Shown one piece after another: positions 33,420 to 57,016 of a stretch of DNA of 61,861 nt. Positions within the stretch are counted from its first letter, which is position 1, and each line of letters starts with the position of its first letter. The position numbers and the translations under genes are program-made. The stretch lies in assembly GCA_026989265.1 (NCBI GenBank), contig JALSJP010000017.1, positions 1 through 61,861 of the forward strand, given 5' to 3'. The stretch comes from Micavibrio sp. GTDB lineage: Bacteria > Pseudomonadota > Alphaproteobacteria > Micavibrionales > Micavibrionaceae. The notes under the pieces are model-generated. The model was not told where the DNA came from, searched no databases, and saw nothing but the letters and a program-made list of their open reading frames with translations.

Positions 33420-33452
33420 GCTTGCGACTGCAAGCTCGCGGACAATTCCGCG
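33420..33452 (+). repeat. Double-hairpin element, copy 1
   Basis: Two adjacent 6-bp hairpins joined by one T: GCTTGC-GACT-GCAAGC (33420-33435) and CGCGGA-CAAT-TCCGCG (33437-33452). It lies between dksA and the end of flgH and is repeated identically 48 bp downstream. Confidence 0.8.
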
Positions 33453-33467
33453 TTTTTAAACTAACAA

Positions 33468-33500
33468 GCTTGCGACTGCAAGCTCGCGGACAATTCCGCG
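33468..33500 (+). repeat. Double-hairpin element, copy 2
   Basis: Identical to copy 1 over 34 bp, followed by CTCTTTTAAAT. A third, sequence-diverged but structurally equal copy is at 56984-57016. It ends 10 bp before the flgH stop, so it may also lie at the end of the flgF-flgH message. Confidence 0.8.
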
Positions 33501-33510
33501 CTCTTTTAAA

Positions 33511-34257
33511 TCAAAAAGGAAATAATATATCATATAGCTGCTGCCCATATCGAGGTTGCTGCATATCCAAAATCTGTCCTTGACCGCCATATATGATGCG
33601 GGCTTCGGCTATTTGGTCATATGACACTGTGTTATTTACCGAAACATCTTCTGGTCTTATAACCCCATCAACTTGCAGCAATCTTTTCTCGAAATTAACT
33701 CGGACTTCTTGCTTGCCGTGAATAACCATATTGCCATTAGGAAGTATTTGCGTAATAAGCGCGGCAAGGCGCAGTTTCACATCTTCATTGCGCTTAATCC
33801 TGCCTGTACCCTTATGTAAAGATGCGGCGTCAAAATCGGCAAGACTTGTGTTGGTTACGGCCTCTGGCAAAATTGTGTTTAATGTTTGCTCAAGACCAAA
33901 TAGATTATCTAGCCCTGCGGTTTCATCGCTTGTGCGCTTGCGTTCGGTCTCATTCCTCATATTAGCTTCGTCTTCTATATCGATCATGACGGTAATTATA
34001 TCGCCAACATCATTTCCGCGTTGATCTTCAAAGAATGTAGTGCGGTTGCTCTGCCATAGTGAATTATTAAGCTTTGTCACTTTTTTAGGGTTAGGCATAG
34101 GCAGACTAACTGGTTGATAGTTTGGATCAGTCATGGGGTTTGTGATTTTAGCCATGTCAGGGGCTTTGCCGATATTAGCAATGCGATCAGCCGTAGAGCA
34201 AGCTCCAAGCATAGAGCATGTCATTAATGCTATGATAGTTGTTTTTATATTGCTCAT
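33511..34257 (-). CDS. flgH: Flagellar L-ring lipoprotein FlgH
   Basis: A 248-aa outer-membrane lipoprotein. The lipobox is LGAC with Cys20. Family motifs: SLWQSNRTTFFEDQRGNDVG, DIITVMIDIEDEANMRNETE, TGRIKRNEDVKLRLAALITQ, ILPNGNMVIHGKQEVRVN and the C-terminal GQGQILDMQQPRYGQQ. With FlgI it forms the LP-ring. Last gene of flgF-flgG-flgA-flgH. Confidence 0.94.
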   Translation of the reverse strand: MSNIKTTIIALMTCSMLGACSTADRIANIGKAPDMAKITNPMTDPNYQPVSLPMPNPKKVTKLNNSLWQSNRTTFFEDQRGNDVGDIITVMIDIEDEANMRNETERKRTSDETAGLDNLFGLEQTLNTILPEAVTNTSLADFDAASLHKGTGRIKRNEDVKLRLAALITQILPNGNMVIHGKQEVRVNFEKRLLQVDGVIRPEDVSVNNTVSYDQIAEARIIYGGQGQILDMQQPRYGQQLYDILFPF

Positions 34258-34270
34258 TTTAAGACCTTTC

Positions 34271-35206
34271 CTAATTTTGCATTACCGCAACTTCGTTATC
34301 ACCTGTAACAATGGCTTGCAGTGTTTTGTTGCTCAAAGTGTTCACCACGCGAATAACATCGCCTTTCGCTCCATTTTCAAGTGCTTTTACTTGCGTTGTT
34401 AAGCTCATAGCCCCGCTATTTAGTGATAGCATTACAAGTGACCCGCGCTTTATAATTTGCGTGGCGGTTATGTCGGTTTGCTTTATGGGGCGACCTGCAA
34501 TAATCATTCTACGCGCGGTCATTCCTATAATTTGGCTCGCATCCGCGATTGTATCTCTTGAGAATGCCCGCTCTTTTATTTTGACATATTCAATATCGCG
34601 GCTTTGTATAGTTCTTCCATGCTGCACATTAGTAGATAGCACTGGAACTGTTATAACGGGCTGTATTTGCCCTTTTATATTAAATTGTTGAATAGGGTTT
34701 TCAGCCGATGGCGCAACGATTGTAACTTCAAATTTTTTGCGCGAGGCATCAAGACTCAAATTTGTGATAGCCATGCTTGCTGGCTGGTCATATGGCAATA
34801 TAATTTTGTGATATTGGCTTGGTATATTAATTTCATAATCACCATATATATTTTCTTCATATAAAGCCGTGTAGATGGTTTCCTTTATTTGGTCATATTC
34901 TATAACAGTTGCAGCGCGGCGCAAGGTGACTTTGTCTGAGTTGCTAGCAGGTCTCCATGGTAAGTCCATAGCCATAGCAATGCGGAGCAATGTCCGCGCA
35001 TTTAATACCATATCTTTATTTGGGTTAGGGGCATTACCTAGCACTTTATCATCCCCGCGCGGAAGGTCATAAAACACATCACCAAGCGTAATTACATTGC
35101 TTGTTATGATGCTGTTTTCCTTTATCCCTACGGCGTTAGCCACATTGAAAGGCAGGATCATTGCACATATAATTGATGATATAATATTTATCTTTAATGC
35201 TTTCAT
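34271..35206 (-). CDS. flgA: P-ring assembly chaperone FlgA
   Basis: A 311-aa periplasmic protein with signal peptide (about 1-25, ending VANA). The N-terminal part includes ITLGDVFYDLPRGDD, and the C-terminal SAF domain (about 185-305) has VQHGRTIQSRDIEYVKIKER, GMTARRMIIAGRPIKQTDIT and LENGAKGDVIRVVNTLSNKT. FlgA helps FlgI polymerise around the rod. The order flgF-flgG-flgA-flgH is the alphaproteobacterial one. Confidence 0.9.
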   Translation of the reverse strand: MKALKINIISSIICAMILPFNVANAVGIKENSIITSNVITLGDVFYDLPRGDDKVLGNAPNPNKDMVLNARTLLRIAMAMDLPWRPASNSDKVTLRRAATVIEYDQIKETIYTALYEENIYGDYEINIPSQYHKIILPYDQPASMAITNLSLDASRKKFEVTIVAPSAENPIQQFNIKGQIQPVITVPVLSTNVQHGRTIQSRDIEYVKIKERAFSRDTIADASQIIGMTARRMIIAGRPIKQTDITATQIIKRGSLVMLSLNSGAMSLTTQVKALENGAKGDVIRVVNTLSNKTLQAIVTGDNEVAVMQN

Positions 35207-35242
35207 AATATCGCCTTTCTTTAGTTTTGGTTATCTAGTTAT

Positions 35243-36028
35243 TTATCTAAGCTGAGCTACTGACCTTAGCATTTCATCGCTTGTTGAAATTACTTTGGAG
35301 TTCATTTCATATGAGCGTTGCGCCGTTATTAGGGAGGTTATTTCGGAGACAACATCAACATTGGATTGCTCTAAAGATCCTTGCTCTATTGCTCCGAACT
35401 GTCCTTGACTGGCAATTCCCGTTATAGGAGTTCCTGAGGCAGTGGTCTCTATATAGAAGTTACCCCCTGTTGCTTCTAGCCCTGCTGGGTTGATGAAATC
35501 AACCAACTGTATCTGCCCTAAATCCTGCACTGCCGCTTGCCCTTGAATGCTAGCTAGGACTTGCCCTTCTTGGTTAATGTCAATGCTTAACGCATTTTCA
35601 GGTATGGTTATGCCGGGATCTACTAAATAGCCATGAACCGTGACAAGCTCGCCATTTTCATTGATTTGGAACGTGCCGTCCCGCGTATATGATAATGTCC
35701 CGTCAGGCATGCTTACTTGAAAAAATCCGCGCCCTAATAACGCTAAATCAAGCTCATTATTTGTTTGCAGCACCGTGCCTTGGGAATGCATGCGGTATAT
35801 TGCGCCGCCCTTAACGCCAAGCCCGACTTGCAAGCCCGATGGAACGGTAGTTCCCGCGTCCGAAGAAGTCGATCCTGGGCGATTGATGTTTTGATACATT
35901 AAATCTTGAAATGCTGCGCGTTGCTTTTTATATCCTGTGGTGGTCATGTTGGCTATATTATTGGATATAACATCAACATTAAGCTGTTGAGCCATCATTC
36001 CAGTTGCGCCTATATTTAGTGATTTCAT
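35243..36028 (-). CDS. flgG: Distal rod protein FlgG
   Basis: 261 aa, the standard length. N-terminus MKSLNIGATGMMAQQLNVDV with ISNNIANMTTTGYKKQRAAF; the centre includes GRGFFQVSMPDGTLSYTRDG; the C-terminus has SNVDVVSEITSLITAQRSYE and ISTSDEMLRSVAQL. FlgG builds the distal rod passing through the LP-ring. It starts 11 bp after flgF. Confidence 0.95.
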   Translation of the reverse strand: MKSLNIGATGMMAQQLNVDVISNNIANMTTTGYKKQRAAFQDLMYQNINRPGSTSSDAGTTVPSGLQVGLGVKGGAIYRMHSQGTVLQTNNELDLALLGRGFFQVSMPDGTLSYTRDGTFQINENGELVTVHGYLVDPGITIPENALSIDINQEGQVLASIQGQAAVQDLGQIQLVDFINPAGLEATGGNFYIETTASGTPITGIASQGQFGAIEQGSLEQSNVDVVSEITSLITAQRSYEMNSKVISTSDEMLRSVAQLR

Positions 36029-36039
36029 GTCCTAAACTC

Positions 36040-36759
36040 CTAGCTTTTGGTTAGTTTTTGTATGGCAGAGCGCAAGCGCTCATGCTCGCCCTCTAGTAAT
36101 TTTTGCGTAGATTGATATTGCCTTAATATTTCGATCATTCTTGTCATCTCAAGAATAGAGTTCACATTTGAGCCCTCTAAAAACCCTTGCTTTACCATGG
36201 TTTTCATTGCGGGATTTGCTGCGCCTTCAGTTGTAAAAATGTTATTTCCGACGGCTTCAAGCTCTTGCACATTGTCAAATTCAACGATTTGCAACTGCCC
36301 GATTTGACCATTTTGATCTGATATCACGCCTTTTTCATCAATTGATATTTCAGTAGAGCTACTTGGTATTGTGATAGGTCCGCCTTGCCCTAGCATTGGA
36401 AACCCAGCAGAGTTTACCAGCGTTCCTTCCGCGGTTTTTTGGAAATTACCGTCGCGAGTATATCCAGTCCCTCCATCAGGCATTTCAACGCTCATAAAGC
36501 CTGCGCCATTTAGGGCTACATTAAAGGGGTTACCCGTTTGCTCTATTGATCCTGCTGCTGTTTTTTGGTATTGACCATAATCTTGCACGAATGATAGGGG
36601 GTCGCCATTATATCTTGGGTCTGATAGATATTCCTTAAAGAGTGGGCTTTGTCCGCGAAATCCCGTCGTATTCATATTGGCAATATTATTAGCAACAATA
36701 CTCATATTGTTCTTTAGCGCCATTTGTCTTGATAGACCTATATATATACTATTTTCCAT
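36040..36759 (-). CDS. flgF: Proximal rod protein FlgF
   Basis: A 239-aa rod protein. N-terminus ENSIYIGLSRQMALKNNMSI with VANNIANMNTTGFRGQSPLF; FlgF-type GAGFMSVEMPDGGTGYTRDG; C-terminal EGSNVNSILEMTRMIEILRQ followed by a Gln/Glu-rich helix. First gene of its operon. A near-consensus sigma-54 promoter lies about 45 bp before the ATG. Confidence 0.93.
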   Translation of the reverse strand: MENSIYIGLSRQMALKNNMSIVANNIANMNTTGFRGQSPLFKEYLSDPRYNGDPLSFVQDYGQYQKTAAGSIEQTGNPFNVALNGAGFMSVEMPDGGTGYTRDGNFQKTAEGTLVNSAGFPMLGQGGPITIPSSSTEISIDEKGVISDQNGQIGQLQIVEFDNVQELEAVGNNIFTTEGAANPAMKTMVKQGFLEGSNVNSILEMTRMIEILRQYQSTQKLLEGEHERLRSAIQKLTKS

Positions 36760-36802
36760 TGCCGTATTTTCTCTTTAAATATAATTACTCTTCATTAGCA
36801 AT

Positions 36803-36817
36803 GCATGTAGCGTGCCA
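36803..36817 (-). promoter_or_regulatory. Sigma-54 promoter of the flgF operon
   Basis: On the minus strand TGGCACG-CTAC-ATGC: an exact -24 element and the GC of -12 with GG-N10-GC spacing. The predicted start is about 30 bp before the flgF ATG. This is the best sigma-54 match in the window. Confidence 0.8.
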
Positions 36818-36999
36818 AAAGAAAATATTGTTTTATTACAGTTGGTTATCTTTGGTATGGCAGTTTTAATATATGGTGCTATTGATATATCTGTGGCAGT
36901 ATTTTCCTATTAGGGCGCAAATTCTTGATTAGACGTGGGCGCTTGTTTGTCTTATAGTTGTTTGTGAATCTAAACTAACTTTATAATGAGATAATAATT

Positions 37000-37626
37000 A
37001 TGGTAGATGAAGAAGATAAGCTTGATGATGAAATTGAGGAAAATGGTGAGTCTGAAGACGGAGAAGACGGAGAAGAGGGCGAGGGTAAGAAAGGCGGCAA
37101 GAAAAAGCTGCTAATGATTATTGTGCCTATTTTACTGCTTATTGGCGGCGGCGCTGGTGCTTATTTTACTGGCATGCTTGACTCGCTACTTGGCGCTCCC
37201 GCTCCTATTGAGGGTGAAGAAGGCGAACATGCCGAGGGTGATGGCGATAAGGAAAAGTCAAAAGACAAGAAAAAAGGCGAGAAGAAAAAAGGTAAAGACG
37301 GCGAATATGAAGAGGCTGCGGAATCTGCGTTTCTTGCCATTCCCACTATAATGGTTAATCTTAATACAGAAGATGGCACGCCAAGATATTTGCGCCTTAC
37401 CGTTCAACTTGAAATGGAAGAAATCGGGGATAAAGACGCGGTGCAGCTAATTATTCCGCGCGTTATCGACCAATTCCAAACTTATTTGCGAGAGCTTAGG
37501 GTTCGCGATTTAAGGGGGTCTGCTGGTATATACCGATTGCAAATGGAATTGCTTTGGCGCGTTAATCAGGCAACAGCCCCGATAGAAATTAAGGATGTTT
37601 TATTTCAGGAAATCCTTATACAATAG
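37000..37626 (+). CDS. fliL: Flagellar basal body-associated protein FliL
   Basis: A 208-aa inner-membrane protein: a very acidic N-terminus, one membrane segment (about 39-58, LLMIIVPILLLIGGGAGAYF), a charged Lys/Glu linker (about 68-105), then the FliL domain (FLAIPTIMVNLNTEDGTPRY, LRLTVQLEMEE, RVIDQFQTYLRELRVRDLRG, INxVLFQEILIQ-like end). FliL rings surround the stator and stabilise its active form. First gene of fliL-fliM-DUF6468-motE. The acidic N-terminal domain is longer than in enteric FliL. Confidence 0.9.
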   Translation: MVDEEDKLDDEIEENGESEDGEDGEEGEGKKGGKKKLLMIIVPILLLIGGGAGAYFTGMLDSLLGAPAPIEGEEGEHAEGDGDKEKSKDKKKGEKKKGKDGEYEEAAESAFLAIPTIMVNLNTEDGTPRYLRLTVQLEMEEIGDKDAVQLIIPRVIDQFQTYLRELRVRDLRGSAGIYRLQMELLWRVNQATAPIEIKDVLFQEILIQ

Positions 37627-37727
37627 CTGTTATTTCGTATAATATAGGCGATATGGCATGTATTTTGCTTATATAACTTATAGATATAAGCAAAAGTTAA
37701 AACATTAAAGTTAAAGCAGTTGTTATT

Positions 37728-38867
37728 ATGAGCGATACAGACACAGAAGAACTCTCGCAGATGAGCGATGAAGAACAGGCCATGATGGATGAGTGGGCTG
37801 CTATGGCTGATGATGGCGATGGTGATGCTTCAGAAGAAAGCGATAGCGCGGAAGCTAGCGTGGAAGCCAGTGATGGCGGCGTTGAGGATGACGGAAGTAC
37901 GCGCATTCTCAACCAAGAGGAAATAGACAGTCTGCTTGGCTTTGATGATGAGGGCGCGGGAGACGGCGAAACTTCTGGCGTTATGGCTTTGGTCAACTCT
38001 GCTATGGTCAATTATGAGCGCCTTCCCATGCTCGATATTGTCTTTGACCGCTTGGTGCGCCTCATGTCTACATCTTTGCGTAACCTTACGGGCGATAATG
38101 TTGAAGTTAGCTTAGATCAAGTCTCAACGGTGCGCTTTGGTGATTATATTAACTCTATCCCGCTTCCTGCTATGCTTTCAGTGTTTAAGGCAGAGGAATG
38201 GGATAATAACGGGCTTATGGTCACAGATAGTGCGCTTATTTACTCAATCGTCGATGTTCTTCTTGGCGGTCGCAAAGGGGAGTCATCTATCCGCATAGAA
38301 GGTCGCCCCTACACTACTATCGAAAGTAAGCTTGTTGAAAAAATGGTTCATATAGCGTTAACTGATCTTTCATCTGCTTTTGACCCTCTATCACCAGTTA
38401 GCTTTAACCTTGATAGGGTGGAAACAAACCCAAGATTTGCTACAATTACTCAAAGTGGTAATGCTTGCGTTATTACGCGTTTGCGCGTGGATATGGGAGA
38501 GCGCGGCGGGCGCGTTGAGATTTTAATCCCCTATGCTACGCTTGAGCCTATTCGTGAGCTTTTATTGCAAATGTTTATGGGCGAGAAATTCGGTCGTGAT
38601 TCTATATGGGAGAATCACCTCACCGAAGAGCTTCATAAAACCGATGTGCAACTGCAAGCTGTACTTGGTGAGATGTCCGTTCCGCTGGGGGAAATGCTTA
38701 ACTGGAAAGTTGGCGATCAAATAATGCTAAATAGCTTTGTCAACGAAGATGTTGAGCTGCGCTGCGGTGATTTCCCAATGTTTAAAGGTCCTGTTGGTCA
38801 AAAACAAGAGCATATAGCCGTGCGCGTTGAGGATTATATAGCATCTGAAGAGGGCAGGGATTTATGA
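37728..38867 (+). CDS. fliM: Flagellar motor switch protein FliM
   Basis: A 379-aa switch protein. After an acidic ~60-residue extension comes ILNQEEIDSLLGF (about 64-76), the EIDALL-type peptide that binds CheY-P. The CheC-like middle domain has LPMLDIVFDRLVRLMSTSLR and YINSIPLPAML. The C-terminal SpoA domain includes LGEMSVPLGEMLNWKVGDQI and LRCGDFPMFKG. The acidic extension before the CheY-binding peptide is unusual, as the peptide is normally at the very N-terminus. The stop overlaps the next gene by four bases. Confidence 0.94.
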   Translation: MSDTDTEELSQMSDEEQAMMDEWAAMADDGDGDASEESDSAEASVEASDGGVEDDGSTRILNQEEIDSLLGFDDEGAGDGETSGVMALVNSAMVNYERLPMLDIVFDRLVRLMSTSLRNLTGDNVEVSLDQVSTVRFGDYINSIPLPAMLSVFKAEEWDNNGLMVTDSALIYSIVDVLLGGRKGESSIRIEGRPYTTIESKLVEKMVHIALTDLSSAFDPLSPVSFNLDRVETNPRFATITQSGNACVITRLRVDMGERGGRVEILIPYATLEPIRELLLQMFMGEKFGRDSIWENHLTEELHKTDVQLQAVLGEMSVPLGEMLNWKVGDQIMLNSFVNEDVELRCGDFPMFKGPVGQKQEHIAVRVEDYIASEEGRDL

Positions 38868-39529
38868 GCGGAGAGCTAATATCTTTGATTTTAGATGTTG
38901 TTATATTGGGCTTTCTTATCGCCACGATATTTTATGCAATTCGCCTTTCTAAAAGCCTAAGTGATTTCAAAGCCCACCGCCGTGAATTTAACGGTGTGAT
39001 TACAAGTCTTTTATCCAGCATAGATCAAGCTGAACGCTCCGTTCATAGCTTAAAACAAGTTAGCGTCCATGAAGCAGCCGAGCTTGAAAGGCTTATAAAG
39101 CAATCAAAATTAATGTTTGAAGACCTTCAGATAATTAATGAAGCTGGCGAAAATATGGCTAAACGGCTTGAAAAACTAGCCGAGGAAAACAGGAAAATAG
39201 CGCAAAAATCTCACAGATCATTTGGTGATAATGATGATGGTAAAATCCACTCAAAAGTGCCGTTTAAATCTAAATCTAGATCAAAAAAAGATTACAAATC
39301 AACACTTAAGGCAGTTGATAAAGATGATAATATGCCATCATTCATGATACAAGATCGTGAATTTGATAATGATTTTGGTGGCGGTGATGCCCAAAACAAC
39401 ATGGCTGATGACCTGCACAGTGAGATGCCAAATGACCTGCAAAGCAAGGCAGAGCAAGAGTTATTCGCCGCCCTTCATAATAATGAGCGTAACAATAAGC
39501 GTAAATCTCCTAAAAGGGGGGGCAGCTAA
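38864..39529 (+). CDS. DUF6468-type flagellar operon protein
   Basis: A 221-aa protein with one N-terminal membrane segment (about 5-25, ISLILDVVILGFLIATIFYA) followed by a conserved helical region (RLSKSLSDFKAHRREFNGVI, LLSSIDQAERSVHSLKQVSV, EAAELERLIKQSKLMFEDLQ) and a basic, disordered tail. This arrangement is the DUF6468 family seen after fliM in alphaproteobacteria; its function is unknown. It overlaps fliM by 4 bp and abuts the MotE-like gene, so an inner-membrane motor-associated role is likely. Confidence 0.75.
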   Translation: MSGELISLILDVVILGFLIATIFYAIRLSKSLSDFKAHRREFNGVITSLLSSIDQAERSVHSLKQVSVHEAAELERLIKQSKLMFEDLQIINEAGENMAKRLEKLAEENRKIAQKSHRSFGDNDDGKIHSKVPFKSKSRSKKDYKSTLKAVDKDDNMPSFMIQDREFDNDFGGGDAQNNMADDLHSEMPNDLQSKAEQELFAALHNNERNNKRKSPKRGGS

Positions 39530-40216
39530 ATGGGCGGGGCTTTTAAATTATTACCTTTATTGATTATGGTGGCTATATTATCGCTTTCCGTGCGATTGAC
39601 AGAGGTGTTTACAGGAATATCAAATATTTCAAGTACCGCCTTTGCGGAAGCTAAGAAAAAGCCAGAGTCAGATAAAGAGTCAGAGGCTAAAGCAGAGCCA
39701 GAACCAAAAGCAGAGCCAGAGCCTAAAGAAGATATTAAGGTCGTCGATGATAAGAGCGCAAAATCACCTAAATGGAGAGATGCTAGCGACTCGGATACTG
39801 GGCTTGCTGGCGTTAAGTTTGAGCTGTTCAAAGATTTATCAAAGCGGCGCGATTTGCTAGACGCTCAAGAAAGAGATATAAATATCCGTGAGGCTCTTTT
39901 AAAAGCAGCAAAGCAAGAGCTAGCGCGTAAATACCAAGAGCTATCTAAGCTGCGCAACGAAATAGAGGGACTGCTGAAAAACCAGTCCGAAGAAGAAGAT
40001 GCGCGCATAAATAGCCTCGTTAAAATTTACGAGGGTATGAAACCTAAAGATTCCGCGCGCATATTTGATACTCTTGACCTTGATGTACTTTTATCTGTTA
40101 TCTCAAGAATGTCCGAACGTAAGGTCTCACCAGTGCTTGCCGCCATGAATCCAGAGCGCGTGCGCACCATTACCATCATGCTAGCCGAGCAAAAAACACT
40201 ACCTACATTAAGATGA
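39530..40216 (+). CDS. motE: MotE-like flagellar motor chaperone
   Basis: A 228-aa protein. A signal or anchor segment (about 5-25) and an acidic Glu/Lys/Pro repeat stretch (KAEPEPKAEPEPK) are followed by a long coiled coil (about 95-150, KRRDLLDAQERDINIREALL) and a C-terminal MgtE-N-like helical domain (LVKIYEGMKPKDSARIFDTL, MSERKVSPVLAAMNPER). MotE family proteins are periplasmic stator chaperones in rhizobia, acting on MotC. It begins at the first base after the preceding gene. Confidence 0.75.
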   Translation: MGGAFKLLPLLIMVAILSLSVRLTEVFTGISNISSTAFAEAKKKPESDKESEAKAEPEPKAEPEPKEDIKVVDDKSAKSPKWRDASDSDTGLAGVKFELFKDLSKRRDLLDAQERDINIREALLKAAKQELARKYQELSKLRNEIEGLLKNQSEEEDARINSLVKIYEGMKPKDSARIFDTLDLDVLLSVISRMSERKVSPVLAAMNPERVRTITIMLAEQKTLPTLR

Positions 40217-40408
40217 TTTGTTGTAAATTGTATATTTCCCCTTCACTTTATGTTTAGCTTGTATAATATTAAAGTTAGCTTGGTGTTTTTTTTGTAACGC
40301 TTACTATCTGTTAACTATTTATACGCATAATGCTGTTTGTAGGCGTTATATCTAGTTTCACTTGTGTATTTTTAAGTTCTTAACGCCTTTAACAATTAGG
40401 AGACGAAA

Positions 40409-40798
40409 TTGGCTGTAGATATGAATATGAATGTGTTGATTGTTGATGATTATACAACGATGCTACGTATTATCAAAAACCTATTAAAGCAACTTGGTTT
40501 TAATAATATTGATGAAGCAACTGACGGCACGATGGCTCTTGAAAAGGTTAAATCAAAAACTTATGGGCTTGTGATTTCCGATTGGAATATGGAGCCTATG
40601 ACTGGATTTGAATTTCTAAAGCAAGTCCGCGCAGCAGATGCCCCTTATAAAACTGTTCCATTTATTATGGTGACTGCCGAAAGTAAGACTGAAAATGTTA
40701 TTGCGGCAAAGCAAGCGGGCGTTAATAACTATATTGTTAAGCCATTTAATGCAGAAACTCTTAAAACAAAGATAGGTGCAGTTTTAGGCGAGTTTTAG
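40409..40798 (+). CDS. cheY: Chemotaxis response regulator CheY
   Basis: A 129-aa single receiver domain. Acidic pocket from LIVDDYTTM, phospho-acceptor Asp in VISDWNMEPM (about 59), Thr in MVTAES (about 89) and Lys in YIVKPF (about 111). CheY-P binds FliM to change rotation. The start is TTG 40409, since AGGAG stands 6 nt before it, while the next ATG (40421) is too far from that site. It sits in a cheY-cheZ pair inside the motor region, not in a che cluster. Confidence 0.92.
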   Translation: MAVDMNMNVLIVDDYTTMLRIIKNLLKQLGFNNIDEATDGTMALEKVKSKTYGLVISDWNMEPMTGFEFLKQVRAADAPYKTVPFIMVTAESKTENVIAAKQAGVNNYIVKPFNAETLKTKIGAVLGEF

Positions 40799-40835
40799 AG
40801 GTTAGAATTTATTGAAATAGCTATAGGGTAAAAAC

Positions 40836-41453: not shown

Positions 41454-41519
41454 ATAATAGCAAATTACTATAATTATGCCCTATCGCTTTTTGTTTATGA
41501 TTGAGTTATATTATAAAGC

Positions 41520-42188: not shown

Positions 42189-42206
42189 GGGGAGGGGAAA
42201 AAGCCT

Positions 42207-43016: not shown

Positions 43017-43055
43017 CACTAGATCATGAGGCTTAGCTATGGCATTATTAAAAGC

Positions 43056-46430: not shown

Positions 46431-46463
46431 ACAGTGATAATAATTATATACTGTAATATATAT

Positions 46464-47231: not shown

Positions 47232-47275
47232 GAGGCAATCATAGCGCAATGATGGAGCATAATTTAAGTGCTAGC

Positions 47276-47599: not shown

Positions 47600-47764
47600 A
47601 TCTATGTCTTATCATTGGCGCACCATATGTTCAAGTGTTCAATATTTTCTTGCTATTTACATATTAGACATATTACATAATGTAAGAAATAAAATTGGAG
47701 AGTTGAAATGAATAATGAATTTACTGGTGCATCTACAAATCAAAGATATTAAAATTATGAAGAA

Positions 47765-48292: not shown

Positions 48293-48293
48293 A

Positions 48294-48814: not shown

Positions 48815-48818
48815 AATG

Positions 48819-49175: not shown

Positions 49176-49184
49176 GTTTCCTGC
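49170..49184 (+). promoter_or_regulatory. Sigma-54 promoter of the flgB operon
   Basis: TGGCATG-TTTC-CTGC on the plus strand with exact GG-N10-GC spacing, one mismatch in the -24 heptamer. It is 41 bp before the flgB ATG, the same distance class as at flgF. It overlaps the divergent fhlB-like start. Confidence 0.75.
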
Positions 49185-49225
49185 ATTGCTTGTTATGAGT
49201 AGTTATTATACAGGATTAAAGAGAT

Positions 49226-49636
49226 ATGACGATACAAGATATAGGACTTTTTCAAGCCATTGGCGCAAAAATGAATTACCTTAATCAAAGGCAAAGCGTT
49301 CTTGCTCAAAATGTTGCTAATGCTGATACCCCTAGTTATCGCCCGAAAGACCTTGTTGAGGTTGACTTTTCAACCATGCTTAAAACCGAGATGGGCGGAA
49401 ATAAGGTTAAAACTGTATCAATAGCCGCTACAGATGCGCAGCATTTAGGTGGCTCTAACAACATGGATATGGATGCAAAAAAGCAGCGCAACACTTATGA
49501 AGTCGCGCCCGCTGGTAATGCTGTAATCATGGAAGAGCAGCTGATAAAATCGGGCAAAAACACAATGGATTATAATTTAATGCTTAATGTTTATCAAAAA
49601 CAAGTGTCAATGTTCCGCATTGCCTTGGGAAGATAG
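49226..49636 (+). CDS. flgB: Proximal rod protein FlgB
   Basis: A 136-aa rod protein: LFQAIGAKMNYLNQRQSVLA with QNVANADTPSYRPKDLVEVD (rod signature) and C-terminal MEEQLIKSGKNTMDYNLMLN, VYQKQVSMFRIALG. It forms the proximal rod next to FliE. AGGATTAAAGAG precedes the ATG. First gene of flgB-flgC-fliE-fliQ-fliR-flhB. Confidence 0.93.
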   Translation: MTIQDIGLFQAIGAKMNYLNQRQSVLAQNVANADTPSYRPKDLVEVDFSTMLKTEMGGNKVKTVSIAATDAQHLGGSNNMDMDAKKQRNTYEVAPAGNAVIMEEQLIKSGKNTMDYNLMLNVYQKQVSMFRIALGR

Positions 49637-49648
49637 GGGGTTTTACAA

Positions 49649-50068
49649 ATGAGTAGCAACGATATTTTAAATGCAATGACAATTTCTGCAAATGGAATGA
49701 GAGCGCAAGGAGCGCGTATTCGCGTTATATCTGAAAATATAGCCAATGCAGGTACAACGGGCTTGACCGCTGGCTCTGACCCATATGCTCGACAGACTAT
49801 AAGCTTTAAAAATGAGCTTGACCGTGAGCTTGGCATTAGGCTTGTTGAGGTTGATAAAATCGGCGTTGACAGGAAATCAGATTTTAAGCTTAAATATAAT
49901 CCCGATCACCCTGCCGCGAATGAAGGTGGATACGTGAAAATGCCTAATGTTAATACCATGATAGAGATGATGGATGTTAAGGAGGCACAGCGTTCATATG
50001 AAGCAAATTTAGGAATGATAGAACAAACAAGAGCAATGATCTCACGGACAATAGATTTACTACGTTAG
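49649..50068 (+). CDS. flgC: Proximal rod protein FlgC
   Basis: A 139-aa rod protein. N-terminus LNAMTISANGMRAQGARIRV with ISENIANAGTTG; middle DPYARQTISFKNELD and YNPDHPAANEGGYVKMPNVN, an FlgC-typical motif; C-terminus MMDVKEAQRSYEANLGMIEQ. It lies 12 bp after flgB. Confidence 0.94.
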   Translation: MSSNDILNAMTISANGMRAQGARIRVISENIANAGTTGLTAGSDPYARQTISFKNELDRELGIRLVEVDKIGVDRKSDFKLKYNPDHPAANEGGYVKMPNVNTMIEMMDVKEAQRSYEANLGMIEQTRAMISRTIDLLR

Positions 50069-50086
50069 TTAATTGAGTGTATAATG

Positions 50087-50177
50087 AGGACGGAAAAATT
50101 AAAAGAGTGATTTGTATTTATAATGCAAATTGTACCGAGCAAGTGCGAGGCGTCCGTTAGGACGGAAAAATTAAAAG
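50087..50177. repeat. Duplicated leader between flgC and fliE, with hairpin
   Basis: AGGACGGAAAAATTAAAAG occurs at 50087-50105 and again at 50159-50177. Between them lies the hairpin CGTCC-GTTA-GGACG (50151-50164), which partly uses the second repeat. The second repeat supplies the AAAAGGA ribosome-binding area of fliE. Confidence 0.55.
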
Positions 50178-50186
50178 GAATAAAAT

Positions 50187-50531
50187 ATGGCAATCGGCGG
50201 AGTAGTAAATCCTAATGCAGCAATAAGCGCATATTCTAATTCTCAGAATATAACAGGGGTTGGCGCTATTACTAAGAGCAATCCTATCGCTAGCAATATT
50301 AATAGCAGCTCAGAGCCGTCTTTTGCTGATTTGATGAAGCAAGGCGTTACGCAATCAGTAGATACTTTGAGGGCTGGTGAGACCATGTCCGCCAAGGCAA
50401 TTACTGGTGAAGCAAATATCACCGATGTTGTGCAGGCTGTAACCTCGGCGGAAATAACCTTGCAAACGCTTGTATCTGTGCGTGATAAAATGATTTCCGC
50501 ATATCAAGATATTATGCGCATGCCTATTTAG
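50187..50531 (+). CDS. fliE: Flagellar hook-basal body protein FliE
   Basis: A 114-aa rod adaptor between MS-ring and rod. The N-terminal ~45 residues are Asn/Ser-rich; the C-terminal part is conserved: FADLMKQGVTQSVDTLRAGE, ITGEANITDVVQAVTSAEIT, LQTLVSVRDKMISAYQDIMR. It is the first export substrate and links FliF to FlgB. Confidence 0.92.
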   Translation: MAIGGVVNPNAAISAYSNSQNITGVGAITKSNPIASNINSSSEPSFADLMKQGVTQSVDTLRAGETMSAKAITGEANITDVVQAVTSAEITLQTLVSVRDKMISAYQDIMRMPI

Positions 50532-50621
50532 ACTTAGTCCTTATATATAATTTTGTGGTTTAATTTACAACTATTGCAGTTGGCGGTTTTGCGCACGCAA
50601 ATTACCTGATAGCATCGGCAT

Positions 50622-50891
50622 ATGGATGATGTACAAATAATGGAAACAGCCCGCCAAGCCTTGCTTATTACTATGCAAATAAGTGCGCCTGTTCTTATTG
50701 TTGGGCTTGTGGTTGGGGTAGCTATTGCTTTGCTGCAAGCTTTGACACAAATTCAAGAAATCACGCTGGTTTTCGTTCCTAAGATCATGGCTATATTCTT
50801 CTCCATGTTCTTGTTTTTGCCATGGATGCTGAATGTCCTTGTTGTGTTTATGGAGAATTTGGCGGATTTAATAGTTGGCGGCGGGGGGTAG
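50622..50891 (+). CDS. fliQ: Flagellar export gate protein FliQ
   Basis: An 89-aa protein of normal length, two membrane helices: VQIMETARQALLITMQISAP with VLIVGLVVGVAIALLQALTQ, then IQEITLVFVPKIMAIFFSMF. Part of the FliPQR gate. It ends 9 bp before fliR, beside a G6 run at its stop. Confidence 0.94.
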   Translation: MDDVQIMETARQALLITMQISAPVLIVGLVVGVAIALLQALTQIQEITLVFVPKIMAIFFSMFLFLPWMLNVLVVFMENLADLIVGGGG

Positions 50892-50900
50892 AAGCTGCCC

Positions 50901-51674
50901 ATGCAAAGCGCGCTTGAAATTTTCCTTACTACGGGCATATTGGCATTCATGCTTACATTTGCGCGCCTTGGCACAGCATTAATGATTATGCCTGGTTTTG
51001 GTGATTCATTCGTATCAGAGCGGCTTCGCCTTCATATAGCGCTTGCCGTGTCATTTGTGTTATTTCCTCTTGTTATGGATTATGTTCCATCTCCTATACC
51101 TTCTACTTTTGTGCTGGTCACACTGATAGGTATAGAGGTGGTTATTGGCTTGCTTATTGGCACAGTTGCGCGGATTTTTATGACCGCCCTTGATACAGCG
51201 GGGATGATAATTTCCATGCAATCAGGGCTATCTAATGCCCAAGTATTTAACCCATCATTAGCAGCTCAAGGCTCTGTAATGGGAGCATTTTTGTCTGTTA
51301 CGGGCGTGTTGCTTCTATTTATAACGGATTTGCACCATCTATTAATCACAGGGCTGATTGAAAGCTATGAGCTGTTTCCACTTGGCTTTATGCCCGATAC
51401 TGGCTCTATGGCGGAATTGATATCTCAAGCTGTGACTTCTAGTTTCCAAATAGGTGTTAAACTAGCTGCGCCGTTTATTGTAATGACACTGCTGATTTAC
51501 GTAGGGATGGGGGTTTTATCCCGCCTTATGCCGCAAATTCAGGTGTTTATGGTCGCATTGCCGCTGCAAATATTACTGTCAATAGCCTTGTTTACTTTGG
51601 TTCTAACAGCCTTATTCTCCTTCTGGTTAGGTGAATTCGAAGCCTCCATGCTATTTTTCTTGTCAGGAGGGTAA
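50901..51674 (+). CDS. fliR: Flagellar export gate protein FliR
   Basis: A 257-aa membrane protein with about six segments. Motifs: FARLGTALMIMPGFGDSFVS, RLRLHIALAVSFVLFPL, TLIGIEVVIGLLIGTVARIF and GLSNAQVFNPSLAAQGS. One FliR completes the FliP5Q4R1 gate. Its stop is 6 bp before the flhB ATG. Confidence 0.94.
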   Translation: MQSALEIFLTTGILAFMLTFARLGTALMIMPGFGDSFVSERLRLHIALAVSFVLFPLVMDYVPSPIPSTFVLVTLIGIEVVIGLLIGTVARIFMTALDTAGMIISMQSGLSNAQVFNPSLAAQGSVMGAFLSVTGVLLLFITDLHHLLITGLIESYELFPLGFMPDTGSMAELISQAVTSSFQIGVKLAAPFIVMTLLIYVGMGVLSRLMPQIQVFMVALPLQILLSIALFTLVLTALFSFWLGEFEASMLFFLSGG

Positions 51675-51680
51675 TATAAT

Positions 51681-52757
51681 ATGTCAGGTGAAAACCAAGA
51701 CGACGATTCCCAAAAAACCGAAGAACCCACCCCCAAGAAACTGGAGGAAGGGAGGAAACGCGGGCAAATTGCTATGTCGCGTGAGGTTAATAATTGGGTG
51801 ATGCTGTTTGCTGGCACTATGGTAATTGCAGCATTCGGAGCATCCATGATGACTCAATTATCCAATATTATGCGCGTGTATATTGAGCAAGCCCACGCGC
51901 TGCCTTCTATGCCAGGGGGGCTTGGCGTTGTGCTTGGTGCGGGGTTTAAAGAGGTTATCAAGGTAATGTTTATGCCATTCTTGCTCTTGATGATAGCAGC
52001 GTTCCTTGCTCCATTTATTCAAGTTGGCCCTTTATTCGCGCCCGGTGTTATTAAGCCAGATTTTAGCAAGGTTTCCATTTTTAAAGGCTTTACGCGGCTG
52101 TTTTCCATGCGCTCTATTGTAGAGCTAATAAAGGGTATTTTGAAGATCGGGGCGGTTGGTATGGTTGCCGCTATTATAATTTCACCATATTTTGATAAGT
52201 TCGAGCATTTGATAGATATGCCCATTATCATGGTGATGAGTGAGCTTGGTTATCTTTTTATTAAAATGATGGTTGGTGTTTTAATTATATTAATAGTGAT
52301 AGCGGTTATAGATTTAGTTTATCAACGCGCTGAATATAATAAGAAAATGCGGATGAGCCGTCAGGAAATCAAAGACGAATTCAAGCAATCAGAGGGTGAT
52401 CCTCATGTTAGAGCAAAACTCCGCCAATTAAGGGCAGAGCGCGGGCGTCAGCGCATGATGCAATCAGTGCCTGATGCGGACGTTGTTATCACTAACCCTA
52501 CTCATTACTCTATCGCGCTGAAATATGATCCTGATGAAATGCCGGCCCCTGTTGTTATTGCAAAAGGGATGGATGATCTTGCTCTCCGCATTCGTGAGGT
52601 TGCAAAAGAGCATGATATCGTATTATATGAGAATGTACCGCTCGCAAGGGCTTTGTACGATGTTGCGGAAATCGATGAGATGATTCCAACCGAGCATTTT
52701 AAGGCTGTTGCGGAAATTATCTCTTACGTTTTCAAATTAAAGAAAACTATTAGCTAG
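51681..52757 (+). CDS. flhB: Flagellar export switch protein FlhB
   Basis: A 358-aa protein. N-terminus KTEEPTPKKLEEGRKRGQIA, four membrane segments, then the cytoplasmic domain with the autocleavage site NPTH (in VITNPTHYSIALKYD, about 272-275) and VAKGMDDLALRIREVAKEHD, IVLYENVPLARALYD. It switches export from rod/hook to filament substrates with FliK. A separate FhlB-like homolog of its C-domain is encoded 2.5 kb away. Confidence 0.95.
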   Translation: MSGENQDDDSQKTEEPTPKKLEEGRKRGQIAMSREVNNWVMLFAGTMVIAAFGASMMTQLSNIMRVYIEQAHALPSMPGGLGVVLGAGFKEVIKVMFMPFLLLMIAAFLAPFIQVGPLFAPGVIKPDFSKVSIFKGFTRLFSMRSIVELIKGILKIGAVGMVAAIIISPYFDKFEHLIDMPIIMVMSELGYLFIKMMVGVLIILIVIAVIDLVYQRAEYNKKMRMSRQEIKDEFKQSEGDPHVRAKLRQLRAERGRQRMMQSVPDADVVITNPTHYSIALKYDPDEMPAPVVIAKGMDDLALRIREVAKEHDIVLYENVPLARALYDVAEIDEMIPTEHFKAVAEIISYVFKLKKTIS

Positions 52758-52786
52758 CGAATTATTATAAATAAAAAGGATATTAC

Positions 52787-54445
52787 ATGCGAATTTTATT
52801 GACTGCCTTATTGACCGTTACGGCTTTATCATCATTGCCCGCGATGGCAAAAGACATTCCAGTTGAGAGCAAGATAATATCTGCTACGGTTTATAATGAT
52901 CGGGCAAAATTAACGCGCAGCGCGAAAATTGAAATACCAGCGGGATCGCATAATTTGGTGTTTAGCGGTCTGCCCGTAAGTATTTATACTGATTCCCTTC
53001 GCATGGATGGGAGTTCTCGGGCAAATGTGGAGTTTGGCGCACTTAGCCATAAGCGCGATAATCACCTTGATTATGTTGTGCCTAAGGAAAATGAGCTTAA
53101 TAAGCAAATCAGAGACTTACAAGACACAAAAAAGCTTTATCAGATAGAAAAAAAAGCATTGCAATCAGGCAGGGCATTTCTTGAGAGTTTGGGAAAGCAA
53201 GCAGCTCTTCGTTCTAATGAGGATATAGCGCAAATTAACCTAAAGCCTGAAAGCTGGGCAGCGGCAAGTGATAGCATCACCGTTAAAACCTTAGAAAACA
53301 TGAGGTTAGATCACGAGCTTAATATAAAAACCCGCACGATAAATGAGCAAATAGCTAAGCTTCAAAATGAGTTGCGCGGGCTTAGAACTGGGCAGAAGCA
53401 GAGCTATAGCGTTACTATTCCTTTTGAATCTGATAAGGCAACCACACTTAATATAGATTTAAGCTACCAATTGCCGAATGTTGGATGGCAACCAATATAT
53501 GATGCGCGTTTGGATGTTAAAACTGCCAAGCTGGAGCTTGTGCAATATGGCTCTATCTGGCAACAAACAGGTGAGGATTGGTCAAATATTGCCCTAACCC
53601 TTTCTACTGCTCAGCCAAGCAGAGGGGCAAGCCTGCCAAAGTTAAGTACGCATTGGGTGTCTTTATTTGATAAACGAATTAAACAACGTGGCTTTTCTGG
53701 CAGGGAAATGGCAATGGCGGAAATGGTGGCAGACAGCGCTGCGCCAGTTATGGCTATGTCACTTTCAAAATCTGCCCCGCGTAAAGCTAAGATTAGAGCT
53801 GCGCAAATTAGTGCAGATGGCTTTATAGGTGAGTATAAAATTGTAGCTTTATCAAATGTACCATCTGATGGAACGCGCACTAAATTACTTATTGGAAGCT
53901 TTGAAACTGAAAATACGCTGCAACTCCAAATCAAGCCACAAATCAGCAATGATGCTTATCTTGTTGTTAATACAAAGCTAAAAGGAGACGCGCCAATATT
54001 AGCAGGGCAAGTTAGCTTATTTCGTAATGGCTCATATATAGGCAAGGGATATTTGCCTATGATGCGCCCCGAAGATACAGAGGAGCTAGCCTTTGGCATA
54101 GATGATAATGTAAGAGTAACTCGCAACACCCTTAAGAATAAGAGCAGCGAAAGTGGACTTATTTCAAAAGAAAGCGTTATCGAACGTAATTTTGTAACTG
54201 AAATTAAAAATCTTCATAAAAAACAGATAGATGTGGCTGTTATTGAAACTGTTCCTGTATCAAAAGATGAGCGTATTCGCATTGAGATATTAAAGGATAA
54301 GACAACAAGTGGCTATGAAACTGATTTGGATGATGCAAAAGGTGTTACTCGCTGGCTTAAAACATTAAAGCCACAAGAAAGCACCAAAGTTAATTTAGGC
54401 TGGAAAGTTAGCTGGTCAAAAGGTGAAAATATTTCAGGGCTTTAG
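52787..54445 (+). CDS. DUF4139 (mucoidy inhibitor A-like) secreted protein
   Basis: A 552-aa periplasmic or envelope protein with signal peptide (ending PAMA, about 21). The N-terminal part (VESKIISATVYNDRAKLTRS, HNLVFSGLPVSIYTDSLRMD) is DUF4140-like, a coiled coil follows (about 100-200), then DUF4139: LSYQLPNVGWQPIYDARLDV, LVQYGSIWQQTGEDWSNIAL and a C-terminal beta-rich part (KVNLGWKVSWSKGE). The family is widespread but of unclear function. It lies 29 bp after flhB and 4 bp before cckA, so likely co-transcribed with cckA. Confidence 0.82.
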   Translation: MRILLTALLTVTALSSLPAMAKDIPVESKIISATVYNDRAKLTRSAKIEIPAGSHNLVFSGLPVSIYTDSLRMDGSSRANVEFGALSHKRDNHLDYVVPKENELNKQIRDLQDTKKLYQIEKKALQSGRAFLESLGKQAALRSNEDIAQINLKPESWAAASDSITVKTLENMRLDHELNIKTRTINEQIAKLQNELRGLRTGQKQSYSVTIPFESDKATTLNIDLSYQLPNVGWQPIYDARLDVKTAKLELVQYGSIWQQTGEDWSNIALTLSTAQPSRGASLPKLSTHWVSLFDKRIKQRGFSGREMAMAEMVADSAAPVMAMSLSKSAPRKAKIRAAQISADGFIGEYKIVALSNVPSDGTRTKLLIGSFETENTLQLQIKPQISNDAYLVVNTKLKGDAPILAGQVSLFRNGSYIGKGYLPMMRPEDTEELAFGIDDNVRVTRNTLKNKSSESGLISKESVIERNFVTEIKNLHKKQIDVAVIETVPVSKDERIRIEILKDKTTSGYETDLDDAKGVTRWLKTLKPQESTKVNLGWKVSWSKGENISGL

Positions 54446-54449
54446 TTAA

Positions 54450-56957
54450 ATGAAAATTGACCATTTAGAATTTATTAAGCGCCATCATAATCGAGGAGCG
54501 GCTGCAGGAGAAAAGGGCAGCCGCCGCGTTTTAGGCTCGGCGATTATAATATCTATCCTATCGCTTTACTTTGTGCTTATGATTTTCCTAGTGCATGTCG
54601 CAAGCGTAGATAAAACTACAATAATATTTTCAGCCTTTGTGTTTATTACGGCTACTTTGGTGGCTTTTGCAGCAAGGCGCGCGCAATATCTGCAAGCCAA
54701 GCAAGAAAGCGAGCTTGTGCTTTTAAAGGAAGTATTAGAGGGAAGCAGAGGTGGTCGGCTTGTAACTGATATAAATGATAAAACTATCTATTATAATCAG
54801 CGTTTTACTAAAACATGCTATGGCGCAGATACTGATCCATCATACGATAGATTGCTGGAAATGTTTTCTTCAAATAATAAGGCGGCTGCTTTGTTTAATG
54901 CTTTATCTGATCAAGCGCATCGCGGGCTAACTGATTCTATAGAGTTATATTGTGCCAAGCGTGATTATGAGGGTTGGTATAATGTAACGGCTCAACCAGT
55001 ATCGGGGCATCATGGAATTATTCATTGGAGGATTGATAATGTCACCGATAAATATACTTCGGATAGCGCAATAAGGGAAGAGCGTGAAAAGCTTATTGAT
55101 TTTACGGATAATGCGCCAGTTGGGTTCTTCTCCGTTGATGAGAACGGCAAGTTTATTTTCGCAAATGCTACTTTTGCGCGTTGGCTTGGCGCTGATTTAA
55201 AGCATTTGCTTGATGGAGCGCTTTTGCACACATATCTAATGTCACCGCCAAAAAATGGCAGCCCATATGATTTAATTGATGGCGGCGGCGAATCACAGAT
55301 AGCCACAATAGAGATGAAGGGCGCGTTTGGTAAGGCGTTTTTTGCTTCAATAAGACAAAACATTGTTTGCAATAATGATGGGACACTTAGGACAAGAGCT
55401 GTTGCCACTGACCTTACGCATGAGCAAGAAATGCATCGCGCCCTAAAAGCCTCAGAAGATCGCTTTAAACGTTTCTACGAAGAAGCTCCGCTTGGTATTG
55501 TTTTGGTTAGTGAGCATGGCTTGATCGAAGATTGTAACTCTCAATTTGCCAAGATGGTTGGGCGGGGTGCTAAAGACTTGGTCGATAAGCATTTCAAGCT
55601 GTTAATTGGCGATGATGATAGGGATAGCGTTGTATCTGCACTGAAAGCTATGGATAAGGGGGAGTATTTGGATGGCTCTTTAGAGGTTTCTTTATGCGCC
55701 GATAATGATGAGATTAAAACCGCGCAACTTCACGCAAGGCGAACTATAGAGGGCGGCGGCGTTGTATTGCATTTCATTGATGTGACAGATAAAAAATCAC
55801 TGGAAGAGCAGTTCGTGCAATCGCAAAAAATGCAAGCGGTAGGGCAGTTAGCGGGCGGCATAGCTCATGACTTTAATAATTTGCTAACGGCTATTATTGG
55901 GTTTTGTGATCTATTATTATTGCGCCATAAAGCAGGTGATCCATCTTTTGGTGATATAATGCAAATCCAGCAAAACTCTAATAGAGCGGCAAATCTAGTG
56001 CGCCAGCTATTGGCTTTTTCGCGCCAGCAAACTTTGCGCCAAAGGGTTCATGATGTAACTGATATATTGAGCGAGCTTTCACATCTTATACGCCGTTTAA
56101 TCGGTGCTAATATTGAGCTTGAGATGATACATGGCTCTGACCTTGGGCTTGTAAAAGTTGATGAGGGTCAGATGGAGCAAGTCCTTATTAATCTTGCTGT
56201 TAATGCGCGTGATGCTATGAGAGATAATGGCGGTGGCAAACTCATAATTACAACAGAAAACCATACAAGCCACAAGCCTAAGGAAGTTATGCAAGAGGAA
56301 ATGCCAGCAGGGCATTGGGTTATGATTAAGGTCACAGATACGGGCTGCGGCATACCAAAGAAAAATATGAAACATATTCTTGAGCCGTTCTTTACTACAA
56401 AAGATGTTGGCGAGGGAACAGGGCTTGGGCTTGCGACCGTATATGGTATTATCCGCCAAAGTGGAGGCTTTCTCGATATTGAAAGCAAAATAGGCAATGG
56501 GACTACCTTTATTATATATCTTCCAAAATCAAATGAGGTAGAAGAAGAAATAGAGGCGGTAACAGAAAAAGCCGCCATAAAAGACCTTACAGGAACTGAA
56601 TGTATTTTATTGGTGGAGGACGAAGACGCGGTTCGTACATTCTCGCAGCGTGCTTTAACCAATAAAGGATATGAGGTTATTTCCGCAGAAGATGGCGTTC
56701 GCGCCCTTGCCCTATATGAGCAAGAGGGGCAAAAGCAAATAGACTTGCTTATAACGGACGTTGTTATGCCTGAAATGGATGGGCCAACGCTTGCTCAACG
56801 TGTGCGCCAGCACAGCCCAGAGCTTAAAATTATTTTTATGTCGGGATATACAGAGGATAAACTTAAAGATTATATGGGCGATAACACTTACTTTTTGCCA
56901 AAGCCATTTACATTAAAAGTACTTGCCGCCAAGGTTAAAGAAGTTTTGGAGGGGTAG
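54450..56957 (+). CDS. cckA: Cell-cycle hybrid histidine kinase CckA
   Basis: An 835-aa membrane hybrid kinase. Two membrane segments (about 28-48 and 54-73), then PAS-like domains (about 85-190, 205-320, 335-450; NAPVGFFSVDENGKFIFANA and EEAPLGIVLVSEHGLIEDCN), HisKA with His473 in GGIAHDFNNLLTAIIGF, HATPase with NLAVNARDAM, DTGCGIPKKN and GTGLGLATVYGI, and a C-terminal receiver with Asp770 (LITDVVMPEMDGP). This is the CckA layout; CckA phosphorylates CtrA through ChpT. Gene order flhB - DUF4139 - cckA - recA puts it at the flagellar island edge, and CtrA-like boxes occur before fliF and flagellin. Confidence 0.87.
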   Translation: MKIDHLEFIKRHHNRGAAAGEKGSRRVLGSAIIISILSLYFVLMIFLVHVASVDKTTIIFSAFVFITATLVAFAARRAQYLQAKQESELVLLKEVLEGSRGGRLVTDINDKTIYYNQRFTKTCYGADTDPSYDRLLEMFSSNNKAAALFNALSDQAHRGLTDSIELYCAKRDYEGWYNVTAQPVSGHHGIIHWRIDNVTDKYTSDSAIREEREKLIDFTDNAPVGFFSVDENGKFIFANATFARWLGADLKHLLDGALLHTYLMSPPKNGSPYDLIDGGGESQIATIEMKGAFGKAFFASIRQNIVCNNDGTLRTRAVATDLTHEQEMHRALKASEDRFKRFYEEAPLGIVLVSEHGLIEDCNSQFAKMVGRGAKDLVDKHFKLLIGDDDRDSVVSALKAMDKGEYLDGSLEVSLCADNDEIKTAQLHARRTIEGGGVVLHFIDVTDKKSLEEQFVQSQKMQAVGQLAGGIAHDFNNLLTAIIGFCDLLLLRHKAGDPSFGDIMQIQQNSNRAANLVRQLLAFSRQQTLRQRVHDVTDILSELSHLIRRLIGANIELEMIHGSDLGLVKVDEGQMEQVLINLAVNARDAMRDNGGGKLIITTENHTSHKPKEVMQEEMPAGHWVMIKVTDTGCGIPKKNMKHILEPFFTTKDVGEGTGLGLATVYGIIRQSGGFLDIESKIGNGTTFIIYLPKSNEVEEEIEAVTEKAAIKDLTGTECILLVEDEDAVRTFSQRALTNKGYEVISAEDGVRALALYEQEGQKQIDLLITDVVMPEMDGPTLAQRVRQHSPELKIIFMSGYTEDKLKDYMGDNTYFLPKPFTLKVLAAKVKEVLEG

Positions 56958-56963
56958 AATCTA

Positions 56964-57016
56964 TTCCGCGCTCTTAAATTAAAGCGTTCGACTGGACGCT
57001 CGTGGCTAATGCCACG
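56964..57016 (+). repeat. Double-hairpin element, copy 3 plus a partial copy
   Basis: Complete copy 56984-57016: GCGTTC-GACT-GGACGC (one G-T pair) then T, then CGTGGC-TAAT-GCCACG. It has the same lengths and GACT loop as the copies at 33420 and 33468, but most stem bases differ in a compensating way. A partial copy just before it (TTCCGCGCTCTTAAATT, from 56964) keeps the right half of the second hairpin. It directly follows the cckA stop. Confidence 0.75.

Follow-up and report, generated by a model that had tools for sequence, protein, structure and literature searches.

The 61,861-nt stretch analyzed here (the window: positions 1 to 61,861 of contig JALSJP010000017.1 of the Micavibrio sp. 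assembly GCA_026989265.1) contains three copies of a 33-nt double hairpin that is a member of a repeat family, a larger observation than first stated in a first-pass annotation of this DNA. The covariance-model search suggested there was run on the genome carrying the window (1.74 Mb; G000 in our genome numbering) and gave 53 matches at E≤4.2e-6, many of which keep the stems. We read these elements, with a probability of roughly 0.62, as small non-coding mobile repeats, i.e., hairpin pairs recognized by their structure and loops, which act like the double-hairpin elements (DHEs) of mitochondria and not as a dedicated RNA regulator. Copies lying in frame within leuS and a phage hydrolase gene, and the element-free rRNA spacer of a related genome (G005), point towards mobility. 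Effects on RNA ends are, in the interpretation we favor, incidental and perhaps locally recruited.

Each window copy consists of a hairpin with a 6-bp stem and a 4-nt loop, a single T and a second hairpin of the same dimensions. As the first-pass annotation had described, two copies are identical (Table 1), whereas the stems of the third are built from other bases that are all paired; GACT and the single T are kept, TAAT replaces CAAT, and CTCTT follows. The partial fourth copy reported nearby was found as well. Double hairpins with two perfect 6-bp stems and GAC./.A[AG]T loops occurred three times in the window versus zero times in 30 dinucleotide shuffles, making a chance origin of these three copies unlikely; with any loops they occurred six times (shuffle mean 1.3, maximum 5). 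RNA folding z-scores for the regions 33411–33514 and 56960–57030 were −4.96 and −3.00 on the plus strand and −4.35 and −2.02 on the minus strand. The predicted fold at 56984 is the double hairpin. In the lowest-energy fold predicted for the identical pair at 33.4 kb, copy 1 pairs with copy 2 instead, and the case for a double hairpin therefore depends on comparing copies. Within the window no family reached its Rfam gathering score; at the other loci checked against this database only rRNA, tRNA, tmRNA, 6S and RNase P RNA matched.

A pattern search allowing three mismatches performed no better than chance (20 found vs 22.5 expected; overall 594 vs 666 for the reversed pattern), and a covariance model built from 19 copies was therefore used instead. 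The 33-nt consensus is N6-GACT-N6', T, CGN4-NAAT-N4'CG. In the core, hairpin 1 has a 6-bp stem closed by a GACY loop and is joined through one T to hairpin 2, likewise of 6 bp, which mostly starts with CG and carries an NAAT or NAGT loop. What comes next on the 3' side is mostly YTYTT and an A/T-rich spacer; the element mostly begins with the G of AAA-G on the left and ends between CG and YTYTT on the right. The 86 copies collected had been chosen by their GAC and.A[AG]T loops, and the loop counts cover those motifs only: loop 1 was GACT in 69, GACC in 15 and GACG in two, loop 2 was NAAT in 71 and NAGT in 15. The linker was T in 83 of the 86. Two of the collected copies (starting CATTGC and GCGTGA) are chance matches and were removed, leaving 84 for the tail and wobble counts. 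Three contigs of the assembly break off in or near arrays of the element (C2 and C24 at their ends, C13 at its start), wherefore the copy number is probably underestimated. The arrays that close C2 and open C13 are similar and have a common left flank, and a few of the matches there may represent one and the same piece of DNA.

The stems vary with compensation while loops and linker stay constant: structure, not sequence, is conserved, as had been proposed from the window copies. In alignment A1, 98.7% of the stem cells were paired vs 68.3% in shuffles, both sides had changed in 10 of the 12 pairs, and the covariation score was 0.774 vs 0.181. Extended to 54 distinct copies, 97.1% of the stem cells were paired (65.1% shuffled) and 195 cells were double-changed, compared with 61 in shuffles (maximum 80, 500 shuffles). 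Altogether, 27 distinct arm pairs were found for hairpin 1 and 25 for hairpin 2, and over these the reported strand showed 17 G-T vs 5 A-C wobbles (p=0.017). Variable stems, constant loops and linker and this strand bias together indicate that the folded plus strand is what is read, as RNA or as single-stranded DNA. The earlier suggestion that the RNA form matters thus stands for the folded plus strand, but not for RNA as such, since the G-T bias fits folded single-stranded DNA equally well. Covariation could also arise without selection if hairpin template switching copied one arm onto the other, with the arrays being passive satellites. One phage-cluster copy has an inverted first loop (GGTC for GACC), as expected from hairpin inversion; such neutral palindrome repair, however, predicts no excess of G-T over A-C and leaves the dispersal, the loop conservation and the in-frame coding copies unexplained, which makes it a very improbable account.

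Comparison of orthologous sites suggests both gain or loss and persistence. The rRNA spacer contains the element in G000 and G010 but not in G005, where it was seen whole, nor in the part of the G009 spacer that was seen. By eye, the RNase P 3' flank carries it in one of 20 readable genomes (G000) and the 6S flank in two of 19 (G000, G007). The leuS gene of G002 contains two tandem units in frame. Of its net 84 extra nt, 36 are accounted for by a 35-nt core and 1 nt, and the other 48 by a tandem unit whose spacer is 13 nt long. Twelve leuS loci were searched with a sequence expression and 11 matched (G038 did not); at the insert position, 10 of 11 orthologues have the short form of five residues, while G003 (L328) has an unrelated, different repeat-like in-frame insert. 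In the G010 phage hydrolase gene, a 33-nt core and a 12-nt local duplication follow the sixth codon in frame; the short form is present in G000. Both G000 and G010 have two units at the tRNA-Leu(tag)/trigger-factor site, between flanks that are 79–82% identical, and the hairpin 1 stems of the two genomes differ by four compensated pair changes. Element-free sites and in-frame copies on the one hand and the kept tRNA-Leu site on the other lead us to the view that the element is apparently mobile and yet also retained under constraint on its structure.

The family is patchily distributed. Matches at E≤1e-6 were obtained in six of 104 genomes of the taxonomic family (five of one genus plus G021) and in two of 385 genomes of a class sample (G000, G021); these searches used stricter filters, so some weak matches were lost, and the window genome counts in both. 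The remaining 98 of the 104 genomes gave no match at this threshold, among them five genus members at least 91% complete. Weaker matches were seen in G001, G008, G012 and others, some of them to a longer, related repeat family. Eight stretches of a genome collection contain the exact pattern, and five of these come from Micavibrio or alphaproteobacteria; L118, L120 and L124 are regarded as chance matches, as is the match L116 from a viral scan.

The longer, second family shares the GACY hairpin 1, followed by another hairpin and mostly a GCNTNCGTGGCGTTTGAACGC-like sequence. Its loci are L245–L248 in G001, L111 (5570/6699) in G002, L112 (2530/4476) in G004, L250 in G008, L242 (2039) in G010 and L218 (2075) in G028.

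Outside a phage-derived gene cluster, copies in G000 lie beside two tRNA-Leu genes, tRNA-His, tRNA-Ala, 6S and RNase P RNA. They are antisense to these genes, with the right end of the element facing the RNA; in G010 and G012 some copies lie in sense directly 5' of tRNAs. At 12 curated RNA-gene sites (tRNA, 6S, RNase P RNA), the right end is 9–17 nt from the RNA end, eight copies being antisense at 3' ends and four in sense at 5' ends. The gap from the right end to the gene or RNA boundary measured 5–19 nt at 15 of 17 hand-curated non-phage sites (mode 14; recA start set at 57162) and was smaller than the left gap at 11 of the 13 sites measurable on both sides (p=0.022). Not included in this count are further copies from the rRNA spacers of G010 and G000 (the head-to-head pairs, and in G010 the leader copy), the second, longer family (including L242) and L108, L109, L240 and L243, the last of which leads into a Shine-Dalgarno-like GAGGAG.

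The greatest share of the matches in G000 (32 of 53) came from one phage-type gene cluster of about 20 kb encoding portal, capsid, tail, tail fibre, hydrolase, terminase and holin proteins, all in the sense of the cluster genes. The expectation of the first-pass annotation that copies would keep one orientation relative to genes was borne out at all 21 sites counted in this cluster (G000 10, G010 8, viral contig L125 3), but was not supported outside it, where eight of the 12 curated RNA-gene copies are antisense. The inverted-loop copy (L096, 14279–14336), which has an extra hairpin within loop 2, was assigned the strand of its stronger match. Nine of the 10 phage arrays of G000 lead into AGGA. 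The podovirus-type cluster (G000 C2:95.7–107.5 kb and C13:1–8.3 kb, L096 and L031; G010 L106/L114; G002 L111/L347/L348) adjoins the same orotate phosphoribosyltransferase-like gene in all three genomes, and a gene that we take to be NAD kinase-like is also found beside it in G000 and G002. The holin of the G010 cluster matches a Pfam family of gene-transfer-release holins. The cluster looks vertically inherited and is a candidate domesticated phage or gene transfer agent. An origin of the element in the phage lineage was considered and abandoned, as the best 80 of 596 IMG/VR relatives of the capsid gene contained no convincing copy (top score 20.1 bits). Additionally, another palindromic repeat (around GCTTACGTAT...ATACGC) was noticed by eye after the capsid gene of several related phages (L096 after 14153, L106, L112, L127, L137 and L155).

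Several observations weigh against mobile repeats as the explanation. Retention at orthologous sites (tRNA-Leu; 6S in G000 and G007) and, in the phage cluster, the uniform sense orientation and the adjacency to Shine-Dalgarno sequences also suit a functional RNA boundary element, in which the hairpins and an A/U-rich linker would set the ends of mRNAs and non-coding RNAs through processing or stabilization and would be kept by selection next to the Shine-Dalgarno sites of the phage genes and next to tRNAs, 6S and RNase P RNA. The close right ends at the 12 curated RNA-gene sites and the G-T bias point in the same direction. Such an element is nevertheless hard to reconcile with the 98 family genomes lacking a match at E≤1e-6 (weaker matches in some notwithstanding), with its presence in so few RNase P and 6S flanks, with both orientations outside the phage cluster and with in-frame coding copies; we consider it unlikely, though not negligible. 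Furthermore, the right-end rule is broken by the 57.0-kb copy before recA (145 nt) and by a 16S leader copy (397 nt), and L108 and L109 are 93 and 74 nt from the nearest tRNA. The two coding insertions are unlike each other (12-nt duplication in the hydrolase gene vs about 1 nt at the first leuS core), and the element-free sites compared all come from other species, none from the same species. Finally, the window genome contains no Y1 transposase above the cut-off, only a 32-aa fragment below it, and no reverse transcriptase.

Intrinsic terminators, possibly bidirectional, that were duplicated and dispersed are another candidate explanation: several sites are located where genes end or behind tRNAs, 6S and RNase P RNA. 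Both 33.4-kb copies are terminator-like (two found vs 0.7 in shuffles), and in loose counts at least five T within eight nt follow hairpin 2 in 37 of 84 copies and, on the other strand, hairpin 1 in 75 of 84. However, the 57.0-kb copy is not terminator-like and 47 of the 84 copies fail in sense; copies are located within rRNA operons and, along the direction of transcription, within the phage cluster; and termination needs neither constant GACT and NAAT loops nor a second hairpin. A terminator role is possible at some sites but not at every site, and as an explanation of the whole family it is improbable. Antitermination was considered when copies were found in rRNA spacers: the element would be a Nus-factor signal (a hairpin with a boxA-like CGCTCTT) or a put-like double hairpin, consistent with CG followed by YTYTT in most copies and with the occurrence in rRNA spacers and the phage cluster. 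The conserved boxA of an rrn/nut signal was lacking, exact CGCTCTT being present in only nine of 84 copies, rRNA copies occur in both orientations, and the G005 spacer has none. Largely refuted by tail counts and orientation, this idea was dropped as very unlikely.

The arrangement of the copies suggests how they might spread. Head-to-tail arrays with a unit period of 45–49 nt are frequent, adjoining units in one array can carry different stem types (e.g., C13:4559–4884), and head-to-head pairs were found in rRNA spacers. Inner spacers resemble right spacers more closely within a site than across sites, and outer left flanks likewise resemble outer right flanks (0 of 1000 permutations in either comparison; 53 of 1000 when restricted to single-unit sites). 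Flanks and spacers are specific to each site or array. Of the 41 arrays inspected by eye, no fewer than 14 start with a unit remnant, the window example being that before copy 3. We infer that a trans-acting activity recognizing the folded strand, either as RNA or as single-stranded DNA, would make the copies. A new core would be inserted next to a site that is A-rich and resembles AAAG or AATG, in many cases directly abutting a boundary needing to stay intact, such as an RNA end, a Shine-Dalgarno sequence or a stop codon. Arrays may then grow by duplication of the core with local flank, and older units may decay from the left. Effects on neighboring RNAs (3'-end hairpin, processing, weak termination) would be possible by-products, perhaps recruited in the phage cluster.

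Mobilization by a REP-associated tyrosine transposase (RAYT) or a reverse transcriptase is unsupported by gene content, with no intact enzyme in the window genome. Reverse transcriptases were likewise missing in G010, G002, G004 and G021, with one partial match in G007, and the five stretches around Y1 matches held no copy of the element. A more specific route, which we regard as doubtful, is copying by way of an intermediate, RNA or single-stranded, that is joined to the ends of mature RNAs; tRNAs, 6S and RNase P RNA would offer their 3' ends as a primer-like junction. If true, it would explain why right ends lie about one spacer from the RNA at the curated sites, why copies are antisense at 3' ends but sense at 5' ends, and why the loss of units from arrays starts on the 5' side. 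L109 and L108, 74 and 93 nt away from a tRNA, do not fit. Because no reverse transcriptase was found in the window genome, the enzyme would have to be of an unrecognized type or supplied from outside.

Among known systems, Rickettsia palindromic elements are alphaproteobacterial palindromes also occurring in frame inside genes, like the present family, but they are much longer and differ in structure. Closest by description are the DHEs of fungal mitochondrial DNA (Allomyces, Schizosaccharomyces), two adjacent hairpins that are mostly intergenic, in some cases within rRNA genes, optional between relatives and thought to be mobile (PMC2800124, PMC10085805); their existence corrects the earlier statement that no named family of this form was known. 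Those of Allomyces are described without flanking duplication and as possibly using an RNA route (PMC2800124). The present family likewise has two adjacent stem-loops and is optional in related genomes (rRNA spacer, RNase P and 6S flanks, leuS, hydrolase). Unlike DHEs, it resides in a bacterial chromosome (bacterial rRNA and housekeeping genes), forms tandem arrays, has conserved GACY and NAAT loops, lies close to RNA ends and occurs in frame in proteins, and the 12-nt duplication in the G010 hydrolase gene differs from the Allomyces case; the first leuS core shows about 1 nt. Similar placement is indicated by a title cited in PMC2800124, according to which GC-rich palindromes flank tRNA genes in Neurospora mitochondria. 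REP, BIME and REPIN sequences are also short dispersed palindromes, occurring singly, as inverted dimers or in clusters, and REPs carry a GTAG or CGTC end tag, CGTC families being reported also without transposase association (PMC3733652). The present family, in contrast, has neither tag, joins its hairpin pair by a T and varies its stems while keeping the loops, and the RAYT-linked forms further differ by their Y1 transposase. In the titles and abstract beginnings of the open literature searched, no bacterial double-hairpin family was described. Taken as a whole, the earlier interpretation is partly supported.

The window copies and their context are compiled in Table 1; the names flgH-like, sensor histidine kinase-like and recA-like are those we presume from the sequence.

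Table 1. Double-hairpin copies and neighboring genes in the window
Feature	Positions	Strand	Remarks
Copy 1	33420..33452	+	GCTTGC-GACT-GCAAGC, T, CGCGGA-CAAT-TCCGCG; covariance model 60.3 bits
A/T-rich spacer separating copies 1 and 2	33453..33467	+	
Copy 2	33468..33500	+	Sequence identical to copy 1; 60.0 bits; end 10 nt from end of flgH-like ORF (33511)
Remnant unit	56964..56975	+	One loop base, 3' arm of hairpin 2, CTCTT tail
Copy 3	56984..57016	+	GCGTTC-GACT-GGACGC (one T-G pair), T, CGTGGC-TAAT-GCCACG; 56.0 bits
dksA-like gene	32842..33270	+	Context, upstream of copies 1 and 2
flgH-like gene	33511..34257	-	Context, convergent with copies 1 and 2
Sensor histidine kinase-like ORF	54450..56957	+	Context, precedes copy 3
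recA-like ORF	57081..58247	+	Context, after copy 3; true start probably further in

The cultured Micavibrio aeruginosavorus ARL-13 was reported to be devoid of mobile elements and to have few repeats, in a survey restricted to repeats that were 50 bp or longer and 97% or more identical (PMC3189940). The element family contrasts with this report, although units so short would have been missed by that survey. Mobile double hairpins are known from mitochondrial genomes. With its dozens of copies, compensated changes at orthologous sites, element-free sites and insertions in frame, a bacterial family allows their spread to be tested through the comparison of strains.

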